From Streptomyces sp. DG2A-72 (GTDB lineage: Bacteria; Actinomycetota; Actinomycetes; Streptomycetales; Streptomycetaceae), in NCBI RefSeq assembly GCF_030499575.1, contig NZ_JASTLC010000001.1, positions 8,208,001 through 8,272,000 on the forward strand: a stretch of DNA of 64,000 nt, written 5' to 3'. The translations under genes and the position numbers were made by a program. Below the pieces are notes generated by a model. The model saw nothing but the letters and a program-made list of their open reading frames with translations, searched no databases and was not told where the DNA came from. Shown here in pieces: positions 11,167 to 28,186 of the stretch. How positions within the stretch are numbered: position 1 is the first letter of the stretch; every line of letters starts with the position of its first letter.

Positions 11167-14100
11167 ATGACGTCTGCTGTGCGCGCCGAGGACATGATCA
11201 TCGGAGTCACCCCGTTCGGTGAACCCGACGCCCGTCTGGCCGCGGCGGTCAGCCGCGCCGGCGGGCTCGGGATCCTGGACCTGGGTGCCGGCGACCGAAG
11301 AACAAGAGCAGCGCTGGCGCGAATACGACGCCTCAGGCCCGGTCCGTACGGAGTGCGGGTCGGCGCGCGGTGCCGGCTCCGGCCCGAGGACGTCCTGAAC
11401 GACGGTCCCGGCACCGTCGTCCTCTCCGTGGACGCGGTCTGGCGGATCGGCGAAGTTCCCTCCGCCATCCGGGTGTTGGCCGAGGTCACCGATCTGGAGC
11501 AGGCGCGGGAGGCGGTGCGTGCCGGGGCGCACGGGCTGATCGCCCGCGGGTCCGAAAGCGGCGGCCGGACAGGGGAGTTGAGCACCTTCGTGCTCCTCCA
11601 GCAGCTGCTGTCCGGCGTCGGCCTTCCCGTGTGGGCCTGCGGCGGCATCGGCCCCCGGACCGCCGCTGCCGCCGTCGCGGGCGGCGCCGCCGGAGTCGTA
11701 CTGGACAGCCAACTGGCCCTGCTGGCCGAGTCGGAGCTGCCGGAACCGGCCGCTGCCGCGCTGCGGTCGATGGACGGCTCCGAGACGGTCGTGGCCGGCG
11801 GTCACCGGGTGCTGCGGCGCCGCGGACCGGACGCCCCGGACATGCCGGACGACGACACGGTGGCGGATCTGCTCGGCGCGCAGGATCTGCGCCGCCAGGT
11901 GCTGCCGGTGGGGCAGGACGGGTTCCTGGCCGCACGGTTCGCCGAACGGTGGGGTGATGCGGGGCGGATGGTGCGCGCGCTCACCGACGCCGTACGGGAA
12001 GCGGTGCGCGACGACACGGCCGTACGGGCACTGCGGGACGGGTCACCGATGGGCCGCGCCCTCGGTACCCGGCTGCCCGTCGCGCAGGGTCCGATGACCC
12101 GGGTGAGCGACCGGGCGCGGTTCGCGGCGGCCGTAGCCGGGGACGGTGCCCTGCCGTTCATCGCGCTCGCCCTCGCGAACGGGGAGCAGACCCGGGCGAT
12201 GCTGGAGGAGACCAGGGACGCCGTGACCGGGCGGCCCTGGGGTGTCGGCGTGCTCGGGTTCGCGCCGGAGGAGACGCGGAACGCCCAGCTGGAGGTCGTA
12301 CGCGAGCTGCGGCCGACGCACGCGATCATCGCGGGCGGGCGGCCCTCGCAGGCCGAGGCGCTGGAGCGGGAGGGGATCAGCACCTTCCTGCATGTGCCCT
12401 CGCCGGGGCTGCTGCGGCAGTTCCTGCAGGCCGGGGCGCGCAGGTTCGTCTTCGAGGGTTCCGAATGCGGCGGCCATGTCGGGCCGCGGGCGAGCTTTCC
12501 ACTCTGGGAGGCCCAACTCGCCGTCATCGAGGACCACTTGGCGGACGCCGAGGACGGCTCCGACATCGAGGTGTTCTTCGCGGGCGGCGTCCACGACGAG
12601 CGATCGGCCGCGATGGTCGCCGCGCTCGCCGCACCGCTGACCGCGCGCGGGGCCGCCGTCGGCGTCCTGATGGGCACCGCCTACCTGTTCACCGAGGAGG
12701 CCGTGGAGTGCGGGGCGATCCAGCCGCTCTTCCAACGGCAGGTCGTCGCCGCGACCGCCACCGCCCTGCTGGAGACGGCTCCCGGCCACGCCACCCGCTG
12801 CGTGCCGAGCCCGTTCAGCGACGACTACCGCGAGCGCGAGGCCGAACTGCGTGCCGACGGCGTGCCCGACCGACGGATCTGGGAGGAGCTGGAGCGGCTG
12901 AACGTCGGGCGGCTGCGGATCGCCAGCAAGGGCGTCGACCGGGACTCCTCCGGCGAGTTGACGGCCGTCGACGAACGACGGCAGCTCACCGACGGGATGT
13001 TCATGGCCGGGGAAGTGGCGGTGCTGCGCTCGGCCACCACCACCATCGGCGCTCTGCACCGGTCGGTGGCCGAAGGCGCGGCCGGCTTCCTCGACGAACG
13101 GGCGCGAGAGCTGCGTGCGCGGTTGAGCGTCGAGGCCGTGGAGCCCGCTGCCCCCGCGCCGCTCGACATCGCCGTCGTCGGCATGGCCTGCATGTTCCCC
13201 GAGGCCCCCGACCTCGCCGCCTTCTGGGCGAACATCCTCGGCGGACGCGACGCCGTCACGGAGGTCCCGCCCGAGCGCTGGGACCCGGCCGTGCACTACG
13301 GCCCCGACGGCGACGGCGCCAGCACATCCAAATGGGGCGGCTTCCTGCCGCGCATCCCCTTCGACCCCCTGCGCTACGGCATCCCGCCCACGTCCCTCGG
13401 CGCCATCGAGCCCGTGCAGCTGCTGGCCCTCGAGGCCGCCCGGCGGGCGCTGGAGGACGCCGGGTACGGCGAGCGCGGGCGGGCGTTCGAGCGGGCGCGC
13501 ACCTCCGTCGTGTTCGGCGCGGAGGCGGGCAGCGACCTGTCCAACGCGACCACGCTGAGGGCCGTACTGCCCTCGTACCACGGCACGATCCCCGACGGCA
13601 TCGAGCAGCAGCTCCCGCGGCTCACCGAGGACTCCTTCCCCGGCATGCTGGCCAACGTCATCTCCGGCCGCATCGCCAACCGGCTCGATCTCGGCGGCGC
13701 CAACTACACCGTCGACGCGGCCTGCGCGTCCTCGCTGGCCGCCCTCGACGTCGCCTGCAAGGAACTCGTCGGCGGGACCAGCGACGTGGTGTTGTGCGGC
13801 GGCGCCGATCTGCACAACGGCATCAACGACTACGTCCTCTTCTCGTCCGTGCACGCCCTGTCCCCGACGGGCCGGTCCCGCGCCTTCGACAGCTCGGCGG
13901 ACGGCATCGCGCTCGGTGAGGGCGTCGCCTGCGTGGTGCTGAAGCGGCTCGCGGACGCCGAGCGGGACGGGGATCGGATCTACGGCGTCATCAAGGGAGT
14001 CGGGAGTTCCAGCGACGGGCGTTCGCTGGGGCTCACCGCACCGCGCCCCGAGGGCCAGCGCGCCGCGCTCCAGCGGGCCTACCGCAACGCCGGGGTCTCG

Positions 14101-17100
14101 CCCGCCGACGTCGGCCTGGTCGAGGCGCACGGCACCGGCACCGTCGTCGGCGACCGTACCGAACTCACCATCCTCAGCGAGGTGTTCAGCGAGGCCGGGG
14201 CCGAAGCGGGCGGGTGTGCGCTCGGGTCGGTCAAGTCGCAGATCGGGCACACGAAGTGCGCCGCGGGACTCGCCGGGCTGATCAAGACGGTGCTGGCACT
14301 GCACCACGGCGTCAAGCCGCCGACGCTGCACGTCCAGCGGCCCAACTCCGGGTGGCGCGAGGACAGCAGCCCGTTCGTGTTCCATGCGCAGGCGCGTCCC
14401 TGGGCGGCTCCGGCAGAGGAACGCCTCGCCGGGCTCAGCGCGTTCGGGTTCGGCGGGACCAACTTCCATGCGGTGCTGGGGGCTTACGGCGATGCCGTGC
14501 CGTCGGCGCAGGGGCTGGACGCGTGGCCCGCGGAGCTGTTCACGTTCCGGGGGAAGGACTTCGCGGGGGCGCGGCGGGCCGTCGAGGACGTGCTCGAGGT
14601 CGCCGAGTCCGTGGCGGCGGAGAGCGGGTGGCCGTGGCGGCTGCGCGATCTGGCACTGAGCGTCGCGCGACGGTCCGATGCCGGGCACGATCCGGTGCAG
14701 ATGGCGGTCGTAGCGACGGATGTGGCTGGTCTGGTAGGGCAGTTGCGGAGGGCGCTGGCCGGGGAGCACGATCCGGCGGCGGGGATTCATATGGCCGGCC
14801 AGGGCTCGGAGGGCGGAGCCGGCGCGGGCTCTGAGGGCAAAGCTGACCGCGGCCCCGTGGGTGACGCCGACCACGGCCCCAGGGGGCAAGCCGACGCAGG
14901 CCCCGGCGCCCCAGCCGACCAAAGCTCCCACGGCAAAGTCGCCTTCCTCTTCCCCGGCCAGGGCAGCCAGCGGCCCGGGATGCTCGCCGACGTCTTCATC
15001 GCGTTCCCCGAACTCCAGCACCACCTCGAACTCGGCCGCGCCTACGCCGACGTGCTGTACCCGCCCGCCGCCTTCGACGACACCGAGCGAGAGCGTCAGC
15101 GCGCCCGCCTCACCGACACCCGCGTCGCCCAGCCCGCCCTCGGCATCGTCGGTCTCGCCGCCCACGAGCTGCTCACCAGGGCCGGGATACGGCCCGACAT
15201 GGCCGCCGGACACAGCTACGGCGAACTGGTCGCCCTGTGCGCGGCGGGCGCCCTCGACCCGGAGACACTGCTGACGCTGAGCGCCGAGCGGGCGGAGGCG
15301 ATCCTCGACGCGGCCGGGGCGGACCCCGGGACGATGGCGGCGGTGGCGGCCGGTGCCGGAGACATCGAGCGGGTGCTCGACGCATCGGCCGAGGTCGTCG
15401 CCGCCAACCACAACTCACCCGGTCAGACGGTGATTTCGGGACCCACGGCGGCCGTCGAGGAGGCCGTACGACAGCTGCGCGCGGCCGGGATCGGCGCCAA
15501 GCGCATCCCCGTGGCCTGCGCCTTCCACAGCCCGCTGGTGGCGGGCGCCGGTGAGCGGTTCGCCGGGGCCTTGGCCCAACACGCCGTGCGCGCACCCGAG
15601 TTCCCGGTGTGGGCCAACCGCACCGGGAGCCCGTACGGCGACGACGCAGCCGCCGTACGGACCGAACTGGCCGCCCAGATCGGCGCACCCGTCGCCTTCG
15701 TCACGCAGATCGAGGCGATGTACGAGGCCGGAGCGCGCGTCTTCGTCGAGGCGGGCCCGGGATCCGTGCTCACCCGGCTGGTCGGACAGATCCTCGGCGA
15801 CCGCCCGCACCGCACCGTCGCCTGCGAGCCCCGCGCCGGCAGCGGACTGCGCGGCTGGCTCGACGCACTCGCCCAACTCGCCGTCGCCGGGCAGCCGGTA
15901 CGCACCGCGTGGCTGCTGCGGGGCCGGGACGCCGTCGACGCCGTCCGCACCCCCGCGCCGAAGCGGCCCGGCTGGACGGTCGACGGCCAGCTGGTCCGCA
16001 CCGCCGCCGGAGAACTCCTCCCCGGTGCCCTCGCACCGGCCCGACGCGTCGTGGAGACGACTGTGACGACCAACCACACGAACGGCACCCCGGCCCACTC
16101 GGACAAGGACGCGCTGATCTCCGAGTTCCTGCGCACCAGCCGCGAGATGGTGGCGGCCCAGCGGGACGTGCTGCTGACGTACTTCGGCGGGGCCGCGGCG
16201 GCAGGGCAGTGGGTTCCGGCACAGCAGCCGGTCCAGCTTCCTGTGGAGCAACCAGTTCAACTGGCCGTGGAGCAATCGGCCTTGCAGCAGGCGCCGCAGC
16301 CTGAAGCCGCCTCCGAAGCAACAACCGAAGAAACAACCGACGAAACCGATGTCCTCTCCGTCGTGCTCGAGATCATCAGCGAGCGCACCGGCTACCCCAT
16401 GGACATGATCGAGCCCGACCTCGACCTGGAGGCCGACCTCAGCATCGACTCCATCAAGCGCGCCGAGATCGCCGGTGAACTGGCCAAGCGCCTCGGCGCA
16501 GGCGGCGGCGCCGACCTCGCCGCGCTCGACGACGCCGAGCTGGAGGAGTTGGCGAAGGCGCGTACGGCGGCGGCGGTCACCGAGTGGCTCGCGGGGCGGC
16601 TGTCCCCGGCGGAGCAGCAGCCCGAGCCGGTCGTGGCGGCGGAGCCCGACCCCGACCCGGTGACCGGTGAGGCGCCGAAGCGGTTCGTGCTGCGGCCCGT
16701 CCTCCTGGAGCCGGCCGCCGCGGACCCGGCCGCCGAACTCACCGGGCGGCGGTTCATGCTCATCGGTGAGGACGAGACCGCCGAAGCCGCCCGGGAGATC
16801 GCGGCCCGGCTCACCTCGCACGGCGCCGAGACCGTGGCCCTCGGCCGGGAGCACCTGCTCTCCGAAGCCGACGGCCGGGTGGACGGCGTGCTGTACCTCC
16901 ACGCCCTCGCCACCGCCGCCCCGCCGGTGCTGCCTGACGCCTTCCCCGTCCTGAAGGCCGCCCTGGGCCGCGCTCCGCGCCACCTGATCGCCGTACGTCC
17001 CGCCGCCCCGAGTCCGCGGTCGGCCGGTCTGCACGGCCTCTTCCGCACCATCGCCCGCGAGTACCCGGAGACGGTCGCACGGGTCGTCGACCTGGACGAC

Positions 17101-18138
17101 ACGAGGCCCGCCGCCGTCGCCGACGCGCTGCTCGCCGAACTGCTGGCGCCGGAACCGGCCGCCCCGGTGGTGCTGCGCACCGCATCCGGCCGCCATGGGC
17201 TGGAGTTGGCGGAGACACCGCTCGGCACCCTCGGTACGACCGGTGCCGGACCCGCCGGGGACGGGGCCGCCGAGGCCGCCGCGCTCGGACTCGACCGTGA
17301 CTCGGTCGTGCTGCTGGTGGGCGGCGCCCGCGGGATCACCGCCAAGTTCGCCGTCTCGCTCGCCGCCGCCTCCCGCTGCCGTATTGAACTGCTCGGCCGC
17401 ACGCCCGCACCGGACGGACCCGAGGACCCGGTGACCGCCGCCGCACCGGACCGGGCCGCCCTGCGTGCCGCCCTCGCCGCCCGCGGTGGTCTGACGCCCG
17501 CCGAGATCAACCGCGAGACCGGACTCCTGCTCGCCCAGCGGGAGATCACCGCCACGCTCGACGAACTGGCCGCCCTCGGCAGCCGGGCCCGCTACCACTC
17601 CGTCGACTTCCGGGAGCCGGACGCCGCACTCCAGGCGGTGAAGGAGATCCACGCCGAGCACGGCAGGCTCGACGGGGTCGTCTACGCGGCCGGGGTGATC
17701 GAGGACAAGGTGATCGCCGAGAAGGCCACCGAGTCGTTCGAGCGGGTCTACGGCACCAAGACCGTGGGCGCCGAGACGCTGCTGACGGCGCTGGAGGAAC
17801 TGCCGGGCGGGCCCGCGTTCGCGGTGCTGTTCGGGAGTATCTCCGCCGTGCTCGGCAACCGCGGCCAGTCGGACTACGCGGCAGCCAACGACGCTCTGGA
17901 GAGCCTGGGTTCGGCGTGGGCCGCGCGCACCGGCCGCCGGGCGCTGACCGTGCACTGGGGACCGTGGGCGCCGACCGGCGCGCACACCGGCATGGTCAGT
18001 CCGGAGCTGGGCCGGGAGTACGCCCGGCGCGGGATCAAGCTGATCGACCCCGAGGAAGGGACCGCGGCACTGCTGCGCGAACTCGCCTGGGGCGACGAGT
18101 CGGCACGCGCGGTCGTCCACACCGCGTCGGGCTGGTGA
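11167..18138 (+). CDS. PUFA-synthase-like megasynthase A: ER-like x2, KS, AT, ACP, KR
   Basis: A 2323-residue iterative synthase. Residues 5-235 and 285-640 are two nitronate-monooxygenase-type TIM barrels, the fold used as enoyl reductase in PfaD. The second has the expected His in GSECGGHVG (H437); the first has GSESGGRTG, with Arg in that place. KS spans about 667-1105 with Cys853 (VDAACASSLAA), His988 (EAHGTGT) and His1028 (GHTKCAAG). AT spans 1256-1565 with FPGQGSQ, Ser1350 (GHSYGE) and His1454 (AFHSPLV). There is one ACP (DLSIDSIKRAEI, Ser1762), and a KR from 2046 with Tyr2237 (QSDYAAAN). The SIDSIKR-type ACP motif is typical of PUFA and enediyne synthases. I chose the ATG at 11167 over an upstream in-frame ATG. 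The stop lies 1 bp before the next synthase's ATG. The product is unknown. Confidence 0.9.
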   Translation: MTSAVRAEDMIIGVTPFGEPDARLAAAVSRAGGLGILDLGAGDRRTRAALARIRRLRPGPYGVRVGARCRLRPEDVLNDGPGTVVLSVDAVWRIGEVPSAIRVLAEVTDLEQAREAVRAGAHGLIARGSESGGRTGELSTFVLLQQLLSGVGLPVWACGGIGPRTAAAAVAGGAAGVVLDSQLALLAESELPEPAAAALRSMDGSETVVAGGHRVLRRRGPDAPDMPDDDTVADLLGAQDLRRQVLPVGQDGFLAARFAERWGDAGRMVRALTDAVREAVRDDTAVRALRDGSPMGRALGTRLPVAQGPMTRVSDRARFAAAVAGDGALPFIALALANGEQTRAMLEETRDAVTGRPWGVGVLGFAPEETRNAQLEVVRELRPTHAIIAGGRPSQAEALEREGISTFLHVPSPGLLRQFLQAGARRFVFEGSECGGHVGPRASFPLWEAQLAVIEDHLADAEDGSDIEVFFAGGVHDERSAAMVAALAAPLTARGAAVGVLMGTAYLFTEEAVECGAIQPLFQRQVVAATATALLETAPGHATRCVPSPFSDDYREREAELRADGVPDRRIWEELERLNVGRLRIASKGVDRDSSGELTAVDERRQLTDGMFMAGEVAVLRSATTTIGALHRSVAEGAAGFLDERARELRARLSVEAVEPAAPAPLDIAVVGMACMFPEAPDLAAFWANILGGRDAVTEVPPERWDPAVHYGPDGDGASTSKWGGFLPRIPFDPLRYGIPPTSLGAIEPVQLLALEAARRALEDAGYGERGRAFERARTSVVFGAEAGSDLSNATTLRAVLPSYHGTIPDGIEQQLPRLTEDSFPGMLANVISGRIANRLDLGGANYTVDAACASSLAALDVACKELVGGTSDVVLCGGADLHNGINDYVLFSSVHALSPTGRSRAFDSSADGIALGEGVACVVLKRLADAERDGDRIYGVIKGVGSSSDGRSLGLTAPRPEGQRAALQRAYRNAGVSPADVGLVEAHGTGTVVGDRTELTILSEVFSEAGAEAGGCALGSVKSQIGHTKCAAGLAGLIKTVLALHHGVKPPTLHVQRPNSGWREDSSPFVFHAQARPWAAPAEERLAGLSAFGFGGTNFHAVLGAYGDAVPSAQGLDAWPAELFTFRGKDFAGARRAVEDVLEVAESVAAESGWPWRLRDLALSVARRSDAGHDPVQMAVVATDVAGLVGQLRRALAGEHDPAAGIHMAGQGSEGGAGAGSEGKADRGPVGDADHGPRGQADAGPGAPADQSSHGKVAFLFPGQGSQRPGMLADVFIAFPELQHHLELGRAYADVLYPPAAFDDTERERQRARLTDTRVAQPALGIVGLAAHELLTRAGIRPDMAAGHSYGELVALCAAGALDPETLLTLSAERAEAILDAAGADPGTMAAVAAGAGDIERVLDASAEVVAANHNSPGQTVISGPTAAVEEAVRQLRAAGIGAKRIPVACAFHSPLVAGAGERFAGALAQHAVRAPEFPVWANRTGSPYGDDAAAVRTELAAQIGAPVAFVTQIEAMYEAGARVFVEAGPGSVLTRLVGQILGDRPHRTVACEPRAGSGLRGWLDALAQLAVAGQPVRTAWLLRGRDAVDAVRTPAPKRPGWTVDGQLVRTAAGELLPGALAPARRVVETTVTTNHTNGTPAHSDKDALISEFLRTSREMVAAQRDVLLTYFGGAAAAGQWVPAQQPVQLPVEQPVQLAVEQSALQQAPQPEAASEATTEETTDETDVLSVVLEIISERTGYPMDMIEPDLDLEADLSIDSIKRAEIAGELAKRLGAGGGADLAALDDAELEELAKARTAAAVTEWLAGRLSPAEQQPEPVVAAEPDPDPVTGEAPKRFVLRPVLLEPAAADPAAELTGRRFMLIGEDETAEAAREIAARLTSHGAETVALGREHLLSEADGRVDGVLYLHALATAAPPVLPDAFPVLKAALGRAPRHLIAVRPAAPSPRSAGLHGLFRTIAREYPETVARVVDLDDTRPAAVADALLAELLAPEPAAPVVLRTASGRHGLELAETPLGTLGTTGAGPAGDGAAEAAALGLDRDSVVLLVGGARGITAKFAVSLAAASRCRIELLGRTPAPDGPEDPVTAAAPDRAALRAALAARGGLTPAEINRETGLLLAQREITATLDELAALGSRARYHSVDFREPDAALQAVKEIHAEHGRLDGVVYAAGVIEDKVIAEKATESFERVYGTKTVGAETLLTALEELPGGPAFAVLFGSISAVLGNRGQSDYAAANDALESLGSAWAARTGRRALTVHWGPWAPTGAHTGMVSPELGREYARRGIKLIDPEEGTAALLRELAWGDESARAVVHTASGW

Positions 18139-18139
18139 C

Positions 18140-21100
18140 ATGAGGGACAACCATCAGTCACAGCCGCCCGTCGCCATCGTGGGGATGTCGGTGCTGCTGC
18201 CGGGCGCCGCCGACCTCGACTCGTACTGGCGGAACCTGGTGGCCGGCACGGACGCCATCACCGACGTACCCGAAGGGCGGTGGGACTCCGACTACTACCG
18301 TCCGGGTTCCGCCGCCGGGCGTGCGGTCGCCGACCAGGTGTACTGCCGGCGCGGCGGATTCGTCGACACCCTCGCCGAGGTGGAGGTCACCCGGTTCGGG
18401 ATCATGCCGAATTCGGTTTCCGGCACCGAGCCCGACCAGCTCATCGCCCTGCACGTGGCCGCCGCGGCGCTCGCGGACGCGGGCGGTGAGGAGCGGCTGC
18501 CGGACCGGCAGCGGATCGGAGTCGTGCTGGGCCGGGGCGGGTACCTCACGCCCGGGCTGGTCCGGCTCGACCAGCGGGTGCGTACGGCGGGGCAACTCGT
18601 CCGCACGCTGGGGGAGTTGCTGCCCGATCTCGACGGCGGGCAACTGGAGCGCATACGGGCGGCGTTCACCGAACGGCTCGGCCCCGACAGCCCCGAGTCC
18701 GCGATCGGCCTCGTCCCCAACCTCGCGGCGTCCCGCGTCGCCAACCGGCTCGACCTGCGCGGGCCCGCGTACACCGTGGACGCCGCCTGTGCGTCCTCGC
18801 TGGTCGCCGTCGACCAGGCGGTGGGCGAACTGGCCGCCGGGCGCTGCGACCTGATGCTCGCCGGGGGAGTGCACCACTGCCACGACATCACCCTGTGGTC
18901 CGTCTTCTCCCAGCTCCGCGCCCTCTCCCCGAGCCAGCGCATCCGCCCCTTCCACCGCAACGCCGACGGCCTCCTGATCGGCGAGGGCACCGGCGTAGTC
19001 GTCCTCAAGCGCCTCGCCGACGCCGAGCGTGACGGGGACCGCGTGTACGCCGTCATCCGCGGCACGGGCGTCGCGAGCGACGGGCGTGCCGCCGGTCTCG
19101 TCAATCCCGACCCCGGCGGCCAGGCCCGTGCGATACGGCAGGCGTGGCGGGCAGCGGGGCTCGATCCGGCGGCGTCCGGGTCCATCGGGCTGCTGGAGGC
19201 ACACGGTACGGCTACCCCTGCGGGGGACGCGGCCGAACTGGCCACGCTGGCCGATGTGTTCGGACCGGGCGACGCTGCGGTGATCGGCTCGGTGAAGTCG
19301 ATGATCGGTCACACGATGCCGGCGGCGGGCGTGGCGGGGCTGGTGAAGGCGGCCCTCGCGGTCCATCACCGGGTGCTGCTGCCGACGCTGCACTGCGACG
19401 AGCCGAATCCGGGGCTGGCCGAGACCCGTTTCCGGCCGCTGGAGAGGGCGGAGCCGTGGGAGGGGGGTGAGGTGCGGCGGGCGGCGGTGAACGCGTTCGG
19501 ATTTGGCGGGATCAACGCGCACGTGGTACTGGAGGAGCCGCCGGTGCGGCAGCGCCCCGTAGGGGCGCGGGGAACTGCGCGACCAGCCACGACGCAGCCG
19601 CACCCGACCGACGGCACATCACGCGTGCTGCTCCTCGCCGCCGACACCCCTGAGGGCCTTGCCGCACAGCTGGACGCCGACGACGCGGACGTACGCGCGG
19701 CCGGTCTCGACGGGGTGACGCCGGAGGCATACGCCCGGCTCGGCATTATCGACCCCACCGCGAAGCGCCTCGCGCTCGCCCGACGCGCGGTAGCCCGCGG
19801 ACGCGCCTGGCACGGTCGTAACGACGTCTGGTTCTCACCCGCCCCGCTCGGCGGAAAGCTCGCGTTCGTCTTCCCCGGCCTCGAAGGCGACTTCGCACCC
19901 CAAGTGGACGATGTCGCCGCCCACTTCGGCCTGTCCGCGCCCGTACCGGGAGCCGCCCAGGTCGGCGACATCGGCCGGCACGGGCTCGGCGTCGTCGCTG
20001 TCGGGCGGCTGCTCGACGCGGCGTTGCGGCGGATGGGGATCGTGCCGGACGCGGTCGCCGGGCACAGTGTCGGCGAATGGACGGCGATGGTCGCGGCCGG
20101 GCTGTACTCCGGGCACGAGGTGGACGGCTTCATGGCGTCCTTCGACCCGGACGCGCTGACCGTGCCGGGGCTGGCGTTCGGGGCGCTCGGGGCGCCGGCC
20201 GAGCGGGTGCTGGAGGCTCTGTCCGCCGACTGGCCGGACGCCGGGATCGTGCTGTCCCACGACAACGCGCCCGCCCAGTCGATGGTGTGCGGTCCGGACA
20301 CGGCCGTGACGGAGTTCGTACGGGCCTTCCGCGCGCAGGGCGTGATCAGCCAGGTGCTGCCTTTCCGGTCCGGCTTCCACACGCCGATGCTTCAGCCGTA
20401 TCTCGGACCCATCAAGGAGGCGGCGAGCCGCTTCCGGCTGCATCCCCCGGCCGTGCCGGTGTGGTCCGGGACCACGGCGGCGCCGTTCCCGTCGGGGGAG
20501 TCGGCGGTCCGTGAGCTGTTCGTCCGGCATCTGCTGGAGCCGGTCCGCTTCCGGCAGCTCGTCGAGGCGATGTACGCGGCCGGGCACCGCACGTTCGTCC
20601 AGGTCGGCCCCGGCCGGCTCGGCTCCCTCGTCGGCGACACCCTGTCGGGCCGCGACCACCTCGTCGTATCCGCCAACTCTCCCCACCGCACGGGCCTCGC
20701 CCAGCTGCAGCGGGTGGCGACGGCGCTGTGGGCGACCGGCGCGAAGCGCTCCGCCGGAATGGCCGCGGTGGGTCGTCGGTTGTCTGCGGCGCCGCGGGGG
20801 CTGGTCGCGCAGTTCCCCGCGCCCCTTGGGGGCGCTGCCGAATCGCAGTCGACTTCGGCTCCCGCGCGAGGGGACCGGCCCCCGGTCCGGCTCGACCTGG
20901 GCGGGGCGCTCGTCTCGCTCGACGGGCCGATCCTGGCGGAGTTGCGTGCGCAGTTGAAGGCCGGTTCCGCGGCCGACCGTGGCGCGGCACCGGCGGTGGC
21001 TCCGGGCGTGGCCCGCCTCGTCGGCGACGCCGTGGGCCGGACGGGCGCGGACGCTCTCGGGGGTGCGGCTGTCTCTCGCGTCCCGGAGCGCGCATCGACG

Positions 21101-23164
21101 GCGGAGCATGCCGCCGTCCCGGGAGCCCTGACCGCGTCCGGCCCGTCGACGCTGGACGCGGTCGCCGCGCACTCTTCGGCCGCCGCCGAACTGAGCGCTC
21201 TCCTACGGGAAACCGCGGAGACGGCAGCCGAGTTGATCGCGGCGGCCGATCGTCGCCCGGCCCCGGCGACCGGAGGTCATCCGGCTCCGGCGATGGCTTC
21301 CGCCTCCGCGGCGGTAGCGGGCACACCCTCCGTCGCGGCCGTTGAGGCGCTGCGCGCCGGGACCGCGACCTCGGAGCCGCAGGCGAACTCGGGCCCGCCG
21401 GTCCCCGGCCTCGCATCGGCCGCCATCGTGCCCCACTTCGCATCGGGCCCGCCGGTCCCCGGCCCCGCATCGGCCCCGCCCCTGCCTCGCCGCGCCTCGG
21501 CCCCGCCCGTGTCCCACCCCGCGCCGCCCACAGGCCTCCCCGCCGCTCCGCCGCCCCCGAATCCCCCCGGCCACCACCACGGAACCGGTCACTCGCGCGC
21601 CCACCGCACCACCGTCCACGTCTCCCCGGACACCATGCCCCACCTCCTCGACCACTGCTTCTTCCCCCAGCGCCCCGGCTGGCCCGACGTGTCGGACCGC
21701 TGGCCGGTCGTGCCGGCCACGACGATCGTGCAGCACATGATGGAGGCGGCGGAGCAGGCGGTACCCGGTACGCGGGCGGTCGCCGTGCACGGGGCGCGTT
21801 TCGACAAGTGGCTCACCGCCACCCCGCCCGTCGACGTCGAGGTCGCCGTCGCCCCTGTCCCCGACGCCCCCGCCCGGCGCGCCGTCTCCTTCGGCCCGCA
21901 GGCACGCTCGGTCGTCGAGCTGTCCGACCGCTACCCGGCGACATCCCCCGCCCCCTGGCACCCCGACCCCGCCACCGAACGCACCCCCGACCACACGGCC
22001 GCCCAGCTCTACGCCGAACGCTGGATGTTCCACGGCCCGGCGTTCCAGGGCGTCAGCGAGCTCACCGCCATCGGTGAGACGCACGTGCGCGGGGTGATCA
22101 CTACGCCGCCCGCGCCCGGGTCCCTCCTCGACAACGTCGGCCAGATCCTGGGCTACTGGATCATGGCGACCCGCACCGAGCGGACCGTCGTCTTCCCGGT
22201 GCACATGCGGCAGATGCGCTTCTACGGGCCGCAGCCGCTCCCCGGCACGGACGTCGGCTGCTTCGTACAGATCACATCCCTCACCGACACCGTTCTCGAA
22301 GCGGACGTCCAGCTGACCGTCGACGGCGAGGTCTGGGCCGAGCTGACCGGCTGGCAGGACCGCCGCTTCGACAACGACCCGCAGACCCGGCCGGTCGAAC
22401 GGTTCCCCGAGCGCAACACCCTCTCCGAGGCCCGGCCGGACGGCTGGGTGCTGCTGCACGAGCGGTGGCCGGACCTGGCCTCGCGGGACCTCATCATGCG
22501 CAACTCGCTGAGCGGCGTGGAGCGTTCGGAGTACGCGGCGCATGCGCCGCGCGGTCGCAGACAGTGGCTGCTCGGGAGGATCGCCGCCAAGGACGCCGTA
22601 CGGCGGTGGTTGTGGGATCACGGTGAGGGGCCCGTTTTTCCGGCCGAGATCCGCGTCCTGAACGACGACTCGGGGCGGCCGTACGTCACCGGCATGCACG
22701 GCCGGCGCCTCCCCCCGCTGGATCTCTCGCTCGCCCATCGCGCGGAGGCCGGCGTGGCGATCGTACGGCCGCACACCCCGGGCCCCGGGCCCGGCATCGA
22801 CATCGAGGAAGTCGTCGAACGGGACCGGGAGACCCTCGCCGCCGCCCTCGGTCCGGACGAACTCGCCCTGCTGCGGGCGCGGTGCGCGGCCACCGCGGAG
22901 TCCGAGGCGTTGTGGTTCACCCGGTTCTGGGCGGCCAAGGAGGCCGTCGCGAAGGCGGAGGGAACCGGTTTCGGCGGGCGGCCGCGCGACTTCGCCGTGC
23001 TGGCGGCCGACGCGGACCGCCTGGTCGTCTCGGGGCGGCTGGAGCGAGCGCGTTACAGCGTGCGCTGCGAACGGACCGGCAACCCGCCCGGGTTGCCGAG
23101 CAGGGAGTACGTCGTGGCCTGGACGACGGGACCGACGCGACAGGACGACGAGGAGAGGGACTGA
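18140..23164 (+). CDS. PUFA-synthase-like megasynthase B: KS, AT-like, DH, PPTase
   Basis: A 1674-residue partner of the preceding synthase. KS (8-455) keeps a full triad: Cys217 (VDAACASSLVA), His355 (EAHGTATPAGD) and His391 (GHTMPAAG). It is therefore not a classical chain-length factor. The AT-like domain (571-870) has Ser643 in AGHSVGEW, but the usual FPGQGSQ is degenerate (FPGLEGDF). A long Ala/Pro-rich linker leads to a hotdog dehydratase (about 1150-1400) with His1172 in LLDHCFFP and ERWMFHGPAFQGV. The C-terminus is a 4'-phosphopantetheinyl transferase: GIDIEEV (Asp1554) and WAAKEAVAKAEG (Lys1600/Glu1601). The protein can thus activate its own ACPs. Two interspersed repeats are translated in frame in its linkers. 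The stop overlaps the next ATG (TGATG). Confidence 0.9.
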   Translation: MRDNHQSQPPVAIVGMSVLLPGAADLDSYWRNLVAGTDAITDVPEGRWDSDYYRPGSAAGRAVADQVYCRRGGFVDTLAEVEVTRFGIMPNSVSGTEPDQLIALHVAAAALADAGGEERLPDRQRIGVVLGRGGYLTPGLVRLDQRVRTAGQLVRTLGELLPDLDGGQLERIRAAFTERLGPDSPESAIGLVPNLAASRVANRLDLRGPAYTVDAACASSLVAVDQAVGELAAGRCDLMLAGGVHHCHDITLWSVFSQLRALSPSQRIRPFHRNADGLLIGEGTGVVVLKRLADAERDGDRVYAVIRGTGVASDGRAAGLVNPDPGGQARAIRQAWRAAGLDPAASGSIGLLEAHGTATPAGDAAELATLADVFGPGDAAVIGSVKSMIGHTMPAAGVAGLVKAALAVHHRVLLPTLHCDEPNPGLAETRFRPLERAEPWEGGEVRRAAVNAFGFGGINAHVVLEEPPVRQRPVGARGTARPATTQPHPTDGTSRVLLLAADTPEGLAAQLDADDADVRAAGLDGVTPEAYARLGIIDPTAKRLALARRAVARGRAWHGRNDVWFSPAPLGGKLAFVFPGLEGDFAPQVDDVAAHFGLSAPVPGAAQVGDIGRHGLGVVAVGRLLDAALRRMGIVPDAVAGHSVGEWTAMVAAGLYSGHEVDGFMASFDPDALTVPGLAFGALGAPAERVLEALSADWPDAGIVLSHDNAPAQSMVCGPDTAVTEFVRAFRAQGVISQVLPFRSGFHTPMLQPYLGPIKEAASRFRLHPPAVPVWSGTTAAPFPSGESAVRELFVRHLLEPVRFRQLVEAMYAAGHRTFVQVGPGRLGSLVGDTLSGRDHLVVSANSPHRTGLAQLQRVATALWATGAKRSAGMAAVGRRLSAAPRGLVAQFPAPLGGAAESQSTSAPARGDRPPVRLDLGGALVSLDGPILAELRAQLKAGSAADRGAAPAVAPGVARLVGDAVGRTGADALGGAAVSRVPERASTAEHAAVPGALTASGPSTLDAVAAHSSAAAELSALLRETAETAAELIAAADRRPAPATGGHPAPAMASASAAVAGTPSVAAVEALRAGTATSEPQANSGPPVPGLASAAIVPHFASGPPVPGPASAPPLPRRASAPPVSHPAPPTGLPAAPPPPNPPGHHHGTGHSRAHRTTVHVSPDTMPHLLDHCFFPQRPGWPDVSDRWPVVPATTIVQHMMEAAEQAVPGTRAVAVHGARFDKWLTATPPVDVEVAVAPVPDAPARRAVSFGPQARSVVELSDRYPATSPAPWHPDPATERTPDHTAAQLYAERWMFHGPAFQGVSELTAIGETHVRGVITTPPAPGSLLDNVGQILGYWIMATRTERTVVFPVHMRQMRFYGPQPLPGTDVGCFVQITSLTDTVLEADVQLTVDGEVWAELTGWQDRRFDNDPQTRPVERFPERNTLSEARPDGWVLLHERWPDLASRDLIMRNSLSGVERSEYAAHAPRGRRQWLLGRIAAKDAVRRWLWDHGEGPVFPAEIRVLNDDSGRPYVTGMHGRRLPPLDLSLAHRAEAGVAIVRPHTPGPGPGIDIEEVVERDRETLAAALGPDELALLRARCAATAESEALWFTRFWAAKEAVAKAEGTGFGGRPRDFAVLAADADRLVVSGRLERARYSVRCERTGNPPGLPSREYVVAWTTGPTRQDDEERD
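19553..19620. repeat. Interspersed repeat copy inside the megasynthase B gene
   Basis: GCGCCCCGTAGGGGCGCGGG followed by GAACTGCGCGACCAGCCACG is the same element as the intergenic copies. It continues through CCGACCGACGGCA, a word shared with the copy near 62900. Here it is translated in frame as RQRPVGARGTARPATTQP in the linker after the KS domain. Confidence 0.85.
20775..20850. repeat. Second interspersed repeat copy inside the megasynthase B gene
   Basis: GGGGCTGGTCGCGCAGTTCC then CCGCGCCCCTTGGGGGCG lies in the opposite orientation to the first copy. Its flank TGCCGAATCGCAGTCGACTT is shared with the intergenic copy at 26741-26830. It is translated in frame as RGLVAQFPAPLGGAAESQS after the AT-like domain. 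Confidence 0.85.
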
Positions 23165-23487
23165 TGCAGCCCAACCCGCAGCCCGACCCGCAGGCCACCG
23201 ACGAGGAAACCGTGCTCGCCGACATCACCGGCATGCTCGCGGCGCTCCTCGACGAGTACGGCCTCGACGACGTCGAGATCGGCATGCAGACCACGTTCAA
23301 CCGCGATCTGGAGCTGGAGAGCATCGACCTCGTCACGCTCGCCGGGCTGCTGGAGGAGCGGTACGGCGGACGGGTCAACTTCGCCGAGTTCCTGGCCGGG
23401 ATGGAGTTCGACGAGATCATCGAACTCACCGTCGGCCGGCTCGTCGAGCACATCGTGCAGAGCCTCAAAGCGGCGGAGGCGGTCTGA
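23164..23487 (+). CDS. Free-standing acyl carrier protein
   Basis: A 107-residue acidic, helical carrier protein. The phosphopantetheine attachment Ser53 lies in DLELESIDLVTL, followed by LLEERYGGRVNFAEFLAGM as helix III. Its ATG overlaps the stop of megasynthase B (TGATG) and the hydrolase gene starts 2 bp after its stop, so it belongs to the same operon. It probably receives an acyl chain from, or loads one onto, the megasynthases, or presents the product to the tailoring enzymes. The attachment motif differs from the SIDSIKR motif of the built-in ACP, which suggests a separate role. Confidence 0.9.
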   Translation: MQPNPQPDPQATDEETVLADITGMLAALLDEYGLDDVEIGMQTTFNRDLELESIDLVTLAGLLEERYGGRVNFAEFLAGMEFDEIIELTVGRLVEHIVQSLKAAEAV

Positions 23488-23489
23488 GC

Positions 23490-24296
23490 ATGGCCATCGT
23501 CGACACGGGCGACATCCGGCTGCACGTCCAGAGAGTGGGCCCCAGGGACGACCGACCCACGACGGCCACCGCGGTGCTGGTGCACGGCCTGCTCACCGAC
23601 AGCCTCGCCAGCTACTACTTCACCGTGGCACCGGTGTTCGCGCTGGCCGGCATCGACGTCGTCATGTACGACCTGCGCGGCCACGGCCGCAGCGAACGCC
23701 CCGAAACCGGTTACCACCTCGACGACAACATCGACGACCTGGAGGCCCTGCTCGACCGGCTTGCGGTCACCGGGCCGGTCCACCTGGTCGGCAACTCGTA
23801 CGGCGGCACGGTCGCCTTCGGCTACGCCGCCTGCCACCCGGAGCGCGTCGCGAGCCTCACTCTCATCGAGTCGGAACCGGCCACCGAGGCCTGGGCGGTG
23901 AAAATCGGCGGCATCCTGCACCGTGTGCTCACCCAGCTCGCGCTCAACGAGGACGACGCCCTCGCCTGGATCACCGCGAACCGCAGCCACAACACCGCCC
24001 GCCTCGCCAAGGGCGCGGCCCGCCTGGCCCGTACCACGAGCCTCCCGCACGACATCCCGGCCAGCCGGGTGCTGACGGAGGAAGAAATCCGGTCCGTGTC
24101 GTGTCCCGTCCTCGCCCTGTACGGCGGTGACTCCGACCTCGCCGAACTCGCACCGTGGCTGAAGGCACTGTTGCCCGACTGCCGGACAGTGGTCGTGCCG
24201 GGGCACGAGCACTCGGTGCTGGTCGAGGCCGCCGGTGTGGTCGGCGAGCACATCCTCCAGCTGATCCGGCAGGCGCAGCTGGCGGAGGTGCGGTGA
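23490..24296 (+). CDS. Alpha/beta hydrolase (possible chain-release thioesterase)
   Basis: A 268-residue cytoplasmic alpha/beta-hydrolase. Visible are the oxyanion segment VLVHGLLTDS, the RGHGRSERP loop, the nucleophile elbow VGNSYGGTVA, an acidic residue in LYGGDSDLAE and the catalytic His in PGHEHSVLVE. No signal peptide is present. Its position directly after the carrier protein and before the glycosyltransferase makes release of the acyl chain from an ACP the likely job. A role in ester hydrolysis or transacylation cannot be excluded. The last codons overlap the next gene as GTGA. Confidence 0.88.
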   Translation: MAIVDTGDIRLHVQRVGPRDDRPTTATAVLVHGLLTDSLASYYFTVAPVFALAGIDVVMYDLRGHGRSERPETGYHLDDNIDDLEALLDRLAVTGPVHLVGNSYGGTVAFGYAACHPERVASLTLIESEPATEAWAVKIGGILHRVLTQLALNEDDALAWITANRSHNTARLAKGAARLARTTSLPHDIPASRVLTEEEIRSVSCPVLALYGGDSDLAELAPWLKALLPDCRTVVVPGHEHSVLVEAAGVVGEHILQLIRQAQLAEVR

Positions 24297-25474
24297 GCAG
24301 GTTCCTGTTCGTCGTGCCGCCGCTCGTCGGTCATATCAACCCGGCCGTGGGGGTCGCCGCCGAACTGACCGCCCGGGGACACCGGGTGGCCTGGGCGTGT
24401 GCCGATCCCGGCCTGGTGCTGCGGCTCGCGGGCGGGAAGGCCGTCGTGTTCTCCTGCGACGGGCCCGTGCCGGGGGCGGGGGACGGCGTACGACCACCCG
24501 AAATCCGCGGACCCGAGGCGCTGAAGTTCCTGTGGGAACGGTTTCTCGCACCGCTCGCCGAGGCGATGGCGCCCGGAGTGGCCGCCGCGGTACGGGAGTT
24601 CGGCCCGGACGTGGTCGTCGCCGATCAGCAGGCGCTCGCCGGAGGGCTGGTCGCCGAACGGCTGGGCGTGCCGTGGGCGACGTCGGCCACCACCTCCGCC
24701 GAGTTCACCGATGTGCTGGCGGGCATGCCGAAGGTCGCCGACTGGATCGACGGAGTCCTGAGGGGGCTGCGGGCCCGGATGGGTGACCCGTCCGGTACCG
24801 CCGATCCCCGCTTCTCGCCCCAACTCGTGCTCGCCTTCAGCATCCGGGAGTTCGTCGGGCCGGACGCCAGGACGGGCGAGCAGATCCGGTACGTCGGCCC
24901 GTCCATCACCGAACGGCCCGGCCCGGCCGACTTCCCCTGGGACTGGCTGGACGCCTCCCGCGCGACCGTCCTGGTCACCCTCGGCACCGCCAACACCGAT
25001 GTGGGACCGCGGTTTCTCGCCGAGTGCCATCGGGCCGTACGGTCCCGTGCCGACCGGATGCAGGCGGTGATCGTGGATCCGGCGGGAGCACTCGCGGGCG
25101 CCGACGACAAGGACGTACTGATCGTGCGATCGGTCCCTCAACTCCCGCTGCTGGAAAGGGTCGACGCCGTCGTCTGTCACGCCGGTCACAACACCGTCTG
25201 CGAGGCGCTCTGGCACGGTGTGCCCCTCGTCGTGGCGCCCATCCGGGACGATCAGCCGGTCGTGGCCGGGCAGGTGGTGGAGGCCGGGGCGGGGATCAGG
25301 GTCCGGTTCGGGCGGGTCACCGCCGTGAAGCTGGGCGAGGCACTCGACGCCGTTCTGCACGAACCCGGTTACCGTGCCGCGGCCGAGCGCATGCGCAGCG
25401 GATTCCGGGCCGCCGGGGGTGCCACCGCGGCGGCCTCCCGTCTCGAAGAGCTGGTCGCCGAGGAGGCGTCATGA
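24293..25474 (+). CDS. GT-B glycosyltransferase of the UDPGT/MGT type
   Basis: A 393-residue GT1-family glycosyltransferase that should transfer a sugar from an NDP donor to a small hydrophobic acceptor. The N-terminal acceptor domain starts FVVPPLVGHINPAVGVAAEL. The C-terminal donor-binding signature is VVCHAGHNTVCEALWHGVPL followed by VVAPIRDDQP, with ATVLVTLGTANTDVG before it. The start is a GTG overlapping the hydrolase stop. In this operon the natural acceptor is the polyketide/fatty-acid-like product of the megasynthases. Its closest recognisable relatives by motif are macrolide-type transferases. The sugar donor is not predictable. Confidence 0.9.
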   Translation: MSRFLFVVPPLVGHINPAVGVAAELTARGHRVAWACADPGLVLRLAGGKAVVFSCDGPVPGAGDGVRPPEIRGPEALKFLWERFLAPLAEAMAPGVAAAVREFGPDVVVADQQALAGGLVAERLGVPWATSATTSAEFTDVLAGMPKVADWIDGVLRGLRARMGDPSGTADPRFSPQLVLAFSIREFVGPDARTGEQIRYVGPSITERPGPADFPWDWLDASRATVLVTLGTANTDVGPRFLAECHRAVRSRADRMQAVIVDPAGALAGADDKDVLIVRSVPQLPLLERVDAVVCHAGHNTVCEALWHGVPLVVAPIRDDQPVVAGQVVEAGAGIRVRFGRVTAVKLGEALDAVLHEPGYRAAAERMRSGFRAAGGATAAASRLEELVAEEAS

Positions 25475-25520
25475 ACGAGGAAGAGGCGTCATGAGCGAGA
25501 AGGGCGTCATGAACGAGGAA
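25461..25520 (+). repeat. Triplicated translation-start region
   Basis: Three tandem units of about 20 bp, each with AGGCGTC or GGGCGTC immediately before ATGA, put ATG codons at 25471, 25491 and 25509. The first ATG overlaps the glycosyltransferase stop. It opens a 7-codon frame (MNEEEAS) whose own stop overlaps the second ATG, the likely methyltransferase start. The third ATG is in frame with the second. Confidence 0.85.
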
Positions 25521-26588
25521 CAGCGCAAAGCGCCGAGCCGCAATGAGCAGGTCGCCGCTCTCCGCCCCGGCTACCTGGCCGACCTGGCCGACGGCCTGGA
25601 ACGGTTCTTCGAACCCCGGCGCACCACCTGCCCGTGGTGCGGTGCGCAGGACCTGCAGACCCGGCTGCGCACCACCGATCTGCTCCAGCACAAGCCCGGC
25701 CGGTTCGTCCTCGACCAGTGCCAGGCGTGCCGGCACACCTTCCAGAACCCCCGACTCAGCGCCGAGGGGCTGGAGTTCTACTACCGGGACTTCTACGACG
25801 GCCTGGGCGAGAAGCAGCTGGGCAACACCTTCGCGGGCCGGACGAAGATGTACGAGCAGCGGGCCGCGTCCCTGCTGCCGTACGCCGCCGACCCGAAGAG
25901 CTGGCTCGACGTCGGTACCGGGCACGGTCACTTCTGCGAGGCCGCCCGCATCGTTCACCCCGGTACGAGGTTCGACGGGCTCGACTTCACCGACGGGGCG
26001 GAACTCGCCGAGCGGGCGGGGCGGGTGGAGCGGGGTTACCGGGGGAGCTTCCCGGAGCTGGCGCCGGGGTTCGCCGGGCAGTACGACGTGGTGAGCATGT
26101 TCCACTACCTGGAGCACAGCACCGAGCCGGACCGGGAACTGAGGGCCGCGCACGAGGCGTTGCGGCCCGGCGGGCATCTGCTGATCGAGGTGCCCGACCC
26201 CGACAGCCGGTACGCCCGGCTCCTCGGCCGGTGGTGGCTGCCGTGGCTCCAGCCGCAGCATCTGCACTTCGTGCCGGTCGGCAATCTGCGGCAGCGGTTG
26301 ACCGACCTCGGCTTCACGGTCGTGGCGGAACAGCACACCGAGCCGCACGATCCCGTCGATCTGCTGGCGGGGACGTGGCTGGCGCTGGACGCGGTGGCTC
26401 CCCGGGACAACCTGCCGTGGCTGCGGTCCGGGCCCAACGCGCTCCAGCGCACCCTGCGCGGTGCGCTGCTTCTCGCCGGTGTCCCGGCCCTGGTCGCGGG
26501 CACGTTGCTGGATCGGTTCGCGATCAGGCCACTGTCGCATCGGCTCGGTGTGTCCAACGCATACCGGCTGGTGGCTCGACGGGACTGA
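25491..26588 (+). CDS. SAM-dependent methyltransferase with N-terminal zinc ribbon
   Basis: A 365-residue class I methyltransferase (Methyltransf_23-like). Near residue 45 a probable zinc ribbon is formed by TTCPWCGAQ and DQCQACRHTFQNP. The SAM-binding glycine motif is SWLDVGTGHGHFCEA, with motif-IV-like YDVVSMFHYLEHS and motif-V LRPGGHLLIEVPDPDS. A C-terminal region (ALLLAGVPALVAGTLLDRF) is rather hydrophobic and could touch the membrane. Start is the ATG at 25491 or 25509; the triplicated start region makes the choice uncertain. It closes the megasynthase operon and probably methylates the lipid, its sugar or a carboxylate. Confidence 0.85.
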   Translation: MSEKGVMNEEQRKAPSRNEQVAALRPGYLADLADGLERFFEPRRTTCPWCGAQDLQTRLRTTDLLQHKPGRFVLDQCQACRHTFQNPRLSAEGLEFYYRDFYDGLGEKQLGNTFAGRTKMYEQRAASLLPYAADPKSWLDVGTGHGHFCEAARIVHPGTRFDGLDFTDGAELAERAGRVERGYRGSFPELAPGFAGQYDVVSMFHYLEHSTEPDRELRAAHEALRPGGHLLIEVPDPDSRYARLLGRWWLPWLQPQHLHFVPVGNLRQRLTDLGFTVVAEQHTEPHDPVDLLAGTWLALDAVAPRDNLPWLRSGPNALQRTLRGALLLAGVPALVAGTLLDRFAIRPLSHRLGVSNAYRLVARRD

Positions 26589-26800: not shown

Positions 26801-26929
26801 GTTGCCGAACCGCAGCCGACTTCACCCGCCCCGCTGTGGGACAACTCTGCGCGCCGCTTCGGCAGTTGTTCATCCGGGTGGGTTCGGAGGGCCCACCGGG
26901 TGTTCCCCGGGCGGAAGAAGCTCGCGGGC

Positions 26930-28186
26930 ATGACATCCAGCTCGTACAGACTCAGGATGACTCGTGCCGCGGCTGTGACGACGGCCGTAGTGACCCTTCT
27001 GGTCGCCCCCGGCGGCCATGCCCAAGCTGCCGACAAGACGCTTCCCCTCGGTGACGCCGACCTCGTGGAGACCCGCAGCAGCCGGGTGCTCGCCGATGGT
27101 GTCACGCTGACCCGGGTCGTGCGGGGCACCGAACCCGCTCCGGCCGATCAGATCAACACGACGACACGCGGCCCGTGGGTGGTCAACGTCCTGACCATCG
27201 ACCCCCGCAGGACCCGCGGCCATCTGAAGGCGACGTACGGACCGGACCTGGCCCGCACGGAGAAGACCACCGATCTCGTCCGTTCCTCCGGAGCGCTCGC
27301 CGGGGTCAATGCCTCCTTCTTCACCTTCACGGCCAGTGCCCAATACCCCGGCGACCCGGTCGGGTTGGGCCTGTACGGCGGGAAGCTCCTCAGCGAGCCG
27401 ACCGCGGATCCCGCCGAGGCCGACCTCGTCGTCGACTCCCGTACCGACCGCGTCCTGATGGGCAAGCTCAGCTGGTCGGGCAGCGTGACGAACCGGGCGA
27501 CCGGCGCCGCGCTCCCGCTGGAGTTCCTCAACCACCCGCCCGTCGTCCCGGCGGCCTGCGCGGCAACCGCCGACTGCACCGAACCCGGCGATGTCACCCG
27601 CTTCACCCCGGAGTTCGCCGACGCCACGCCCTCCGGGCCCGGGACGGAGGCCGTCCTGGACCGGCGCGGCTGCGTCGTACGCACATCGACGACCCGGGGG
27701 ACTGCCCTGACCGCCGGTCAGACGTCGATCCAGGCGACGGGCCGGGAGGCGGCCACCCTGCTCCAGGTGGCCGGAACCGGCTGCCTCAGGGTGACCTCGA
27801 CACTCACCGACGAGCGCGGTGAGACGCTTCCGGTGCGGCCGGGGCTGTCCGGCGTCAACGGGCGCTACCGGCTCACCGCGAACGGCACGATCGTGGTGCC
27901 GCCCGGCTCCGGCAGCTTCTTCGACCGCAACCCGCGCACCATCGCCGGAACGACACGGGACGGCAGGATCGTCCTCGCGACCATCGACGGCCGCGTGACC
28001 ACCAGCGTCGGCACGACCATGAACGAGACCGCCGAGGTCGCCCACGCCCTCGGCCTCCACAACTCCATCAACCTGGACGGCGGCGGCTCCACGGCCATGT
28101 CGGTGGAGGGCACCTTGGTGAACCGCCCGAGCGGAACGACGGAGAGGGCGGTAGGGGACGCCTTGGTATTCACGGACGCCCCGTGA
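26930..28186 (+). CDS. Secreted phosphodiester glycosidase (NAGPA-like) protein
   Basis: A 418-residue exported protein with an N-terminal signal peptide (RMTRAAAVTTAVVTLLVAPG, cleavage near AQAA). The NAGPA/DUF2233 domain is recognised by RGPWVVNVLTIDPRRTRGHL near the start, SGALAGVNASFFTF, and the hallmark SINLDGGGSTAMSVEG close to the C-terminus. Family members hydrolyse sugar-phosphodiester bonds, for example to uncover mannose-6-phosphate, or act on phosphorylated cell-wall glycans. The ATG at 26930 has a GGAAGAAG ribosome site. It follows the megasynthase operon in the same direction but is separated by 340 bp of repeats, so a functional link is only suggestive. A repeat between it and the convergent gene may terminate both. 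Confidence 0.85.
   Translation: MTSSSYRLRMTRAAAVTTAVVTLLVAPGGHAQAADKTLPLGDADLVETRSSRVLADGVTLTRVVRGTEPAPADQINTTTRGPWVVNVLTIDPRRTRGHLKATYGPDLARTEKTTDLVRSSGALAGVNASFFTFTASAQYPGDPVGLGLYGGKLLSEPTADPAEADLVVDSRTDRVLMGKLSWSGSVTNRATGAALPLEFLNHPPVVPAACAATADCTEPGDVTRFTPEFADATPSGPGTEAVLDRRGCVVRTSTTRGTALTAGQTSIQATGREAATLLQVAGTGCLRVTSTLTDERGETLPVRPGLSGVNGRYRLTANGTIVVPPGSGSFFDRNPRTIAGTTRDGRIVLATIDGRVTTSVGTTMNETAEVAHALGLHNSINLDGGGSTAMSVEGTLVNRPSGTTERAVGDALVFTDAP

Follow-up and report, generated by a model that had tools for sequence, protein, structure and literature searches.

A probable Type M-like two-protein lipid synthase and its conserved carrier, hydrolase and sugar-transfer genes in Streptomyces sp. 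DG2A-72

Gene content and organization of the locus

The window analyzed here is a 64,000-nucleotide stretch of Streptomyces sp. DG2A-72, covering 8.208-8.272 Mb of a 10.3-Mb contig in a genome that totals 10.58 Mb. Positions 11167-26588 of the window contain six genes, all open, all on the + strand and joined to their neighbours by overlaps or short gaps, which encode two large synthase proteins (P1 and P2), an acyl carrier protein (ACP), an alpha/beta hydrolase, a glycosyltransferase (GT) and a methyltransferase (MT). We propose that this operon encodes a secondary-lipid synthase resembling Type M, together with genes dedicated to glycosylating its product, which is probably a glycosylated long-chain hydroxy acid. 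Gene 1 ends at 18138 and gene 2 starts at 18140, gene 2 overlaps the ACP gene by 1 base, the hydrolase gene overlaps the GT gene by 4 bases, and the MT gene starts 16 or 34 bases past the end of the GT gene (start codon at 25491 or 25509). For gene 1, 11167 is a likelier start than that of the longest open reading frame (ORF) at 11080, because the conserved region opens just after 11167. The genes and their domains, which include ketosynthases (KS), acyltransferases (AT), a ketoreductase (KR), an enoyl reductase (ER), a dehydratase (DH) and a phosphopantetheinyl transferase (PPTase), are as follows, all on the + strand.

11167..18138, +, gene 1, PfaD fused to PfaA (pseudo-ER and ER barrels, then KS, malonyl-type AT, ACP, KR), 2323 aa from ATG
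11197..11799, +, barrel 1, FabK/NMO-like TIM barrel with GGR for GGH and no catalytic His
12037..13122, +, barrel 2, enoyl reductase of the PfaD/FabK type, catalytic His present (GGH)
13165..14499, +, KS1, PfaA-type, Cys-His-His intact
14935..15819, +, AT1, malonyl-binding Gln and Arg present
16360..16500, +, single ACP domain of gene 1 (LSIDSIKR)
17305..17970, +, KR domain, Ser and Tyr intact
18140..23164, +, gene 2, KS-AT-DH-PPTase, 1674 aa
18167..19534, +, KS2, Cys-His-His intact, in a clade of its own
19982..20617, +, AT2, PfaB-like, with Ser-His but without the malonyl-binding Gln and Arg
20747..21589, +, Ala/Pro-rich linker joining AT2 to the DH, read from the translation
21590..22400, +, DH, polyketide synthase (PKS)-type double hotdog, catalytic His and Asp present
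22412..23161, +, PPTase domain
23164..23487, +, gene 3, free ACP of 107 aa
23490..24296, +, gene 4, alpha/beta hydrolase with nucleophile Ser and His
24293..25474, +, gene 5, glycosyltransferase of family 1 (MGT/YjiC-like) that has the DQ pair
25491..26588, +, gene 6, class I S-adenosylmethionine-dependent methyltransferase with a Cys-rich (zinc-ribbon-like) N-terminal part

The Pfam and NCBIfam models place NMO/FabK-type barrels, KS, AT, one ACP and KR in P1 and KS, AT, DH (PS-DH) and PPTase (ACPS) in P2, followed by a PP-binding ACP, an alpha/beta hydrolase, an MGT-type GT and a Methyltransf_23 protein. The fused ER, the fused PPTase and the free ACP of the original prediction were thus borne out, and its six-gene run is real, with the right coordinates and a gene order that recurs in relatives beyond chance. 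The top NCBIfam model for both P1 and P2 is PfaA (TIGR02813), with scores of 883.6 and 470.4 bits that are both below the model cut-off of 1010.1 bits. Generic PKS models match too, at 632.6 bits for P1 and 437.5 bits for P2, which is what speaks for an ordinary iterative or modular type I PKS outside the Pfa group, an explanation that the KS phylogeny described below makes very improbable.

Distribution and conservation of the gene order

Among 150 Streptomyces genomes, 49 (that of DG2A-72 included) carry the stretch encoding the DH-PPTase, with 57-100% identity at 40 places and 41-44% at 10. The stretch is also found in 42 of the 296 genomes and 11 of the 114 genera of a class sample and in 32 of 35 Frankiaceae genomes, and named genomes hold at least 505 related stretches. 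Among the matches listed, the named relatives of P2 come almost entirely from Streptomyces. The loci examined were 40 of the 49 other Streptomyces places, 36 of the 58 class-sample rows and the best 80 of the at least 505 named-genome stretches; these samples overlap slightly, such that 158 loci correspond to 156 distinct DH sequences and two locus pairs are the same contig. The best 80 include loci of Thermomonospora, Actinomadura, Streptomyces, Kitasatospora, Actinoplanes, Amycolatopsis, Kribbella and a Frankia alni metagenome-assembled genome (MAG), as well as MAGs labelled Acidimicrobiia, Eremiobacterota, Acidobacteriaceae and Deltaproteobacteria.

The ACP, hydrolase and GT genes follow the DH in this order in 143 of the 147 stretches that are long enough to tell (Streptomyces, 40/40; class sample, 34/35; named genomes, 69/72), and the synthase domains precede the DH in order in 38/40, 32/33 and 54/57 stretches of the three samples, respectively. 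Where it was in range, the MT was found in 18/23 Streptomyces, 7/14 class-sample and 39/61 named-genome stretches. The domains of P2 lie on a single ORF in 72 of 78 relative stretches; for P1 this holds in 60 of 78, and the end of the stretch cuts off several of the remainder. All six genes are also carried by two large Streptomyces plasmids, the locus of the Frankia alni MAG (L185) has the same P2, ACP, hydrolase, GT and MT, and Frankiaceae loci carry the whole core of synthase, ACP, hydrolase and GT. In control tblastn searches at an E value of 1e-4, homologues of the ACP, hydrolase, GT and MT were found in none of seven other Pfa/PKS-type plasmid loci (21-32 kb) and in none of five stretches around KS genes of the DG2A-72 genome, which at 4.5-9.5 kb are weak controls. 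The synthase, ACP, hydrolase and GT genes are a syntenic core, which is a new finding of this work. Genes for release, sugar transfer and methyl transfer had been predicted downstream of the synthase; the ACP, hydrolase and GT genes are indeed conserved with it, while the MT gene is patchier.

In distant relatives the MT gene encodes a protein of about 640 aa (L158:13902-15821 and L185:9393-11327), and its N-terminal half of about 390 aa matched no Pfam family and gave chance-level matches in the PDB. In L080 (G134, + strand), P1 and P2 form a single open frame of 4030 aa, which, if the assembly is right, places the whole synthase on one polypeptide. The best AT2 match of L074, a locus with split frames, falls on AT1.

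The near-universal occurrence in Frankia and relatives points to an unexplored lipid system. The 32 of 35 Frankiaceae genomes suggest a family-wide role, and a cell-envelope glycolipid like that of heterocysts, in which a long hydroxylated chain with one sugar would serve as a barrier in vesicles or hyphae of Frankia rather than as a secreted lactone, is an unlikely alternative. The chains of heterocyst glycolipids (C26-C32, with hydroxyl or ketone groups) are made by a related synthase of Type F (Shulse & Allen, PMC3098273), and a glycolipid of Frankia CpI1, with its structure undetermined, appears in a review table (PMC4365757). Against an envelope role, the genes are patchy in Streptomyces (49/150) and also occur on plasmids, like those of accessory metabolites, and the vesicle envelope of Frankia has been described as hopanoid (PMC5745019). 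Moreover, the six genes include none for reduction to a fatty alcohol, and almost every stretch retains a hydrolase match (absent from L152 and on the other strand in L156).

Phylogeny of the ketosynthases

The KS tree contained 50 rows; five of the 55 rows of an earlier tree were dropped, one CLF-like (chain-length factor) and four from the DG2A-72 genome that were FabF-like or short. Its groups were named after the first tree had been seen, rows of Persicobacter, Azospirillum and S. cattleyicolor were called PfaA- or PfaC-type by arrangement and not by annotation, canonical Shewanella or Moritella sequences lie outside the tree, and Beijerinckia is the sole row named in the paper of Shulse & Allen 2011. 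KS1 and the PfaA-type KS form one group of 22 rows (support, 100/99), KS2 and its relatives a clade of 16 rows (100/99) and the PfaC-type KS a pair (100/99), while the 10 rows of the PKS-type side separate at 100/100 with both KS1 and KS2 outside. KS2 stands beside the KS1/PfaA group in the best tree with weak support (88/69), and constraining it to group with the pair of PfaC-type KS gives a tree that the AU test does not reject (p = 0.32). The KS2 of one Frankia-named locus, and KS1 and KS2 of Frankiaceae, group with those of the window; the strains tabulated in 2011 are outside the tree.

KS phylogeny had been named with the original prediction as a refuting test. Neither KS groups with modular PKS, KS1 joins the PfaA-type KS and both are apart from PKS, which upholds a Pfa-like origin; an ordinary PKS is rejected by the 55-row and 50-row trees. 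About 170 kb upstream of the window, L235 (G000 C1:8032500-8042000) contains four KS-like stretches in three frames, two of which grouped with FabF-like rows in the 55-row tree.

Active sites of the synthase and the tailoring proteins

Active-site residues were counted over the related loci after rows in which the match fell on the sister domain had been set aside and two duplicate loci dropped. The original prediction spoke of ER-like barrels in the plural, rightly so, as each barrel alone matches FabK/NMO chains (barrel 1, E = 2e-16; barrel 2, E = 2.9e-13). The fold search with a barrel model covered barrel 2, and the identity of barrel 1 comes from its sequence. By motif, however, only barrel 2 can be an active ER: the catalytic His is found in 1 of 109 aligned relatives of barrel 1 and in 124 of 124 of barrel 2. 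Because the catalytic His is lost, barrel 1 looks like a built-in pseudo-partner of the active ER barrel. If barrel 2 acted in some cycles only, double bonds would be kept, as in PUFA (polyunsaturated fatty acid) or enediyne-polyene chains, and the product would be a polyunsaturated or polyene acid glycoside. PfaA as the best-matching NCBIfam model favours this alternative, and KS-AT-ACP-KR with DH and PPTase is the domain set of enediyne PKSs too; we regard it as improbable.

The second AT that had been predicted in KS-AT-DH-PPTase is present. The malonyl-binding Arg is kept in none and the Gln in 6 of 148 relatives, by which AT2 is PfaB-like, of the terminal acyltransferase type to judge from these residues, rather than extender-loading. 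No CLF was found among the domains of the two proteins, each of which has one KS with Cys-His-His. The dead ER barrel and a PfaB-like AT beside a live KS offer natural experiments on partner contacts and chain length in PUFA-type machines.

In the PPTase, the P1a motif x(G/D)xP reads SGRP in the window and G-x-P in 10 of 11 aligned rows; it is not specific for Type M, since Shulse & Allen give it for all types (PMC3098273). The presence of PPTase motifs is consistent with the earlier description of the two polypeptides as self-activating, a claim that goes as far as these motifs. Among the tailoring proteins, the His of the GT is kept in 150/151 and the Gln of its DQ pair in 151/152 relatives, and among its relatives of known structure are YjiC, a UDP-glucosyltransferase, and glycosyltransferases of oleandomycin. 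The hydrolase keeps its His in 154/154 and its nucleophile Ser in 147/154 relatives.

Comparison with known synthases

Shulse & Allen 2011 define types of secondary-lipid synthases by KS phylogeny, domain structure and product (PMC3098273). Their Type M has members in Frankia, Actinosynnema, Renibacterium and S. avermitilis, for which the available part of the paper gives no product, and the word "glycosyltransferase" is absent from its main text (PMC3098273). Fusions of pfaDA and of pfaBC with a PPTase gene are described in Aquimarina and Flavobacterium (Flavobacteriales hybrids) in a 2026 paper, where they are likened to Renibacterium (PMC13291983). The window has the same PfaD-PfaA and PfaBC-PPTase fusions as those stated for Renibacterium, a Type M member, and is therefore, provisionally, best filed as a member of Type M. 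The compact two-polypeptide system of the original prediction is thus real, but its fusion was already known and fits the Type M of 2011. Neither the dead barrel nor the PfaB-like AT2 is seen in the available parts of these published descriptions (PMC3098273; PMC13291983); with the conserved sugar module, they are what is new here. Type M is a lipid synthase known since 2011 for which no product was found in the literature searched. The cluster of S. coelicolor, which had been named as a relative, is of a different type: it is listed as Type L, with a separate PfaD and KS-CLF-DH2-AT (PMC3098273).

The marine PUFA synthases PfaA-E (Types A and B) share with the window the PfaA-type KS1-AT1-ACP-KR, the PfaD-type ER, the PfaB-like AT2 and the PPTase. 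They differ in having a KS-CLF pair in PfaC, where no CLF was found in the window, four to six tandem ACPs instead of the one in gene 1, and two DH/I (dehydratase/isomerase) domains in PfaC instead of the single PKS-type DH detected here; the window in turn has an intact KS beside its PfaB-like AT, an extra dead barrel and glycosylation genes. A PUFA synthase proper is rejected, as the KS-CLF pair, the tandem ACPs and the two DH/I are lacking.

A likeness to Type P, whose clusters in Azotobacter and Beijerinckia make phenolic lipid chains (PMC3098273), is seen in the plasmid clusters of Beijerinckia (L011) and a similar Methylosinus locus (L010), which share the tandem barrels before KS-AT-ACP-KR and a DH-PPTase protein. 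Their barrel 1 likewise lacks the His (Gln and Arg instead), and since the tandem barrels are shared, this layout may be older than the divergence from Type P. Unlike the window, both hold an ABC exporter alongside genes whose annotation reads "3-oxoacyl-ACP synthase III C-terminal domain", and neither has a match to its hydrolase, ACP or GT, though each has an annotated glycosyltransferase of another kind nearby. In Azotobacter, Type P includes a type III PKS (PMC3098273).

Proposed pathway and product

The conserved linkage of the synthase to carrier, hydrolase and sugar-transferase genes leads to the concrete prediction of a glycosylated hydroxy acid. In the proposed pathway, the PPTase would activate the ACPs, AT1 would load malonyl units, KS1 condense them and the KR of P1 reduce the keto group, after which the DH of P2 would dehydrate and barrel 2 reduce the enoyl bond with dead barrel 1 as its fixed partner. 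KS2 may also extend the chain, in place of a KS-CLF pair. If the DH were skipped in a few cycles, the last included, hydroxyls would be left on a long, sparsely hydroxylated chain, which AT2 could move onto the free ACP once finished. The GT would then put a glucose-type sugar on a hydroxyl, the hydrolase would release the chain as a free acid or, more specifically, lactonise it onto the sugar, and the MT would O-methylate the sugar or a chain hydroxyl. No product of a Type M-like six-gene system was found in the literature searched, in agreement with the earlier remark that no characterized product was known for the full gene set.

Several observations weigh against this reading. At the level of gene order, single loci have no match to the GT (L115), the ACP (L149) or the hydrolase (L152), L156 has its downstream block on the opposite strand, and L081 has the downstream genes with no synthase match in about 11 kb upstream of the DH. 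L117, L184, L189 and L209 are without KS2, yet they keep AT2-DH-PPTase and the following genes; KS2 is thus not essential everywhere, and these loci are natural KS2-less versions of the system. At the level of residues, an Arg stands one column past the malonyl-binding position in 32 of 148 AT2 rows, and the Asp of the PPTase is kept in only 136 of 152. The hydrolase nucleophile is Cys in 6 of 154 relatives, its acidic residue is variable (Asp in 69 and Glu in 56 of 156), and in distant loci its matches are just 34-50% identical within a large superfamily.

Fattiviracin and cycloviracin are acyl-glucose dimers with trihydroxy chains of about C22-C33, in which glucose is attached to chain hydroxyls and the carboxyl is esterified to glucose C6, and the sugars of cycloviracin are O-methylated (PMC4365757); macroviracins and arthrobacilins are named beside these glucolipids (PMC8171317). 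From the gene classes present, which fit a long hydroxy chain, an O-glucoside, an ester and an O-methyl group, we infer a possible match to fattiviracin and cycloviracin, the MT being patchy, which would fit methylated and unmethylated members. Glucolypsin differs in being smaller, with a shorter, iso-branched 2-methyl-3-hydroxy chain (PMC4365757). The operon is accordingly put forward as a candidate pathway for orphan antiviral glucolipids. Tentatively, and with less than even confidence, the five-gene core may be the missing biosynthesis of cycloviracin, fattiviracin and kin; the hydrolase would then be a lactonising dimerase, the MT would decide between methylated and unmethylated sugars, and the Frankiaceae would have a near-universal glycolipid, with the dead ER barrel acting as a covalent dimer partner and the PfaB-like didomain with its live KS replacing the CLF. 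Arthrobacilins originate from Arthrobacter, and neither this genus nor S. microflavus, S. purpurogeniscleroticus, Kibdelosporangium or Nocardia vaccinii is among the matches listed, which argues weakly against a glucolipid product. No gene cluster for cycloviracin or fattiviracin was found in the literature searched, including the available parts of PMC5168871, PMC8171317, PMC13047676, PMC6232825 and PMC11946340.

Flanking genes

Upstream of gene 1, a Mur ligase gene of the window has a counterpart in none of 45 loci, most of whose stretches reach little over 2 kb in that direction; those of the two Streptomyces plasmid loci reach 12-15 kb. Directly downstream of the operon, 26900-28186 (+) encodes a secreted-looking phosphodiester glycosidase of the NAGPA family, which is otherwise found only in L044, with many stretches spanning just a few kb downstream. 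An ORF at 28512-29366 (+) was rejected as a seventh gene: it looked conserved but runs antisense to the gene for a PF03706 membrane protein, which is encoded on the opposite strand. This flippase-like protein (28287-29390, -) is convergent to the operon. A relative lies on the other strand 1.1-3.1 kb past the end of the GT in 8 of 40 Streptomyces stretches, and in L157 one lies past the GT on the same strand; since it is thus past the GT in 9 loci, though 140 loci span at least 3 kb there, it is not part of the core.

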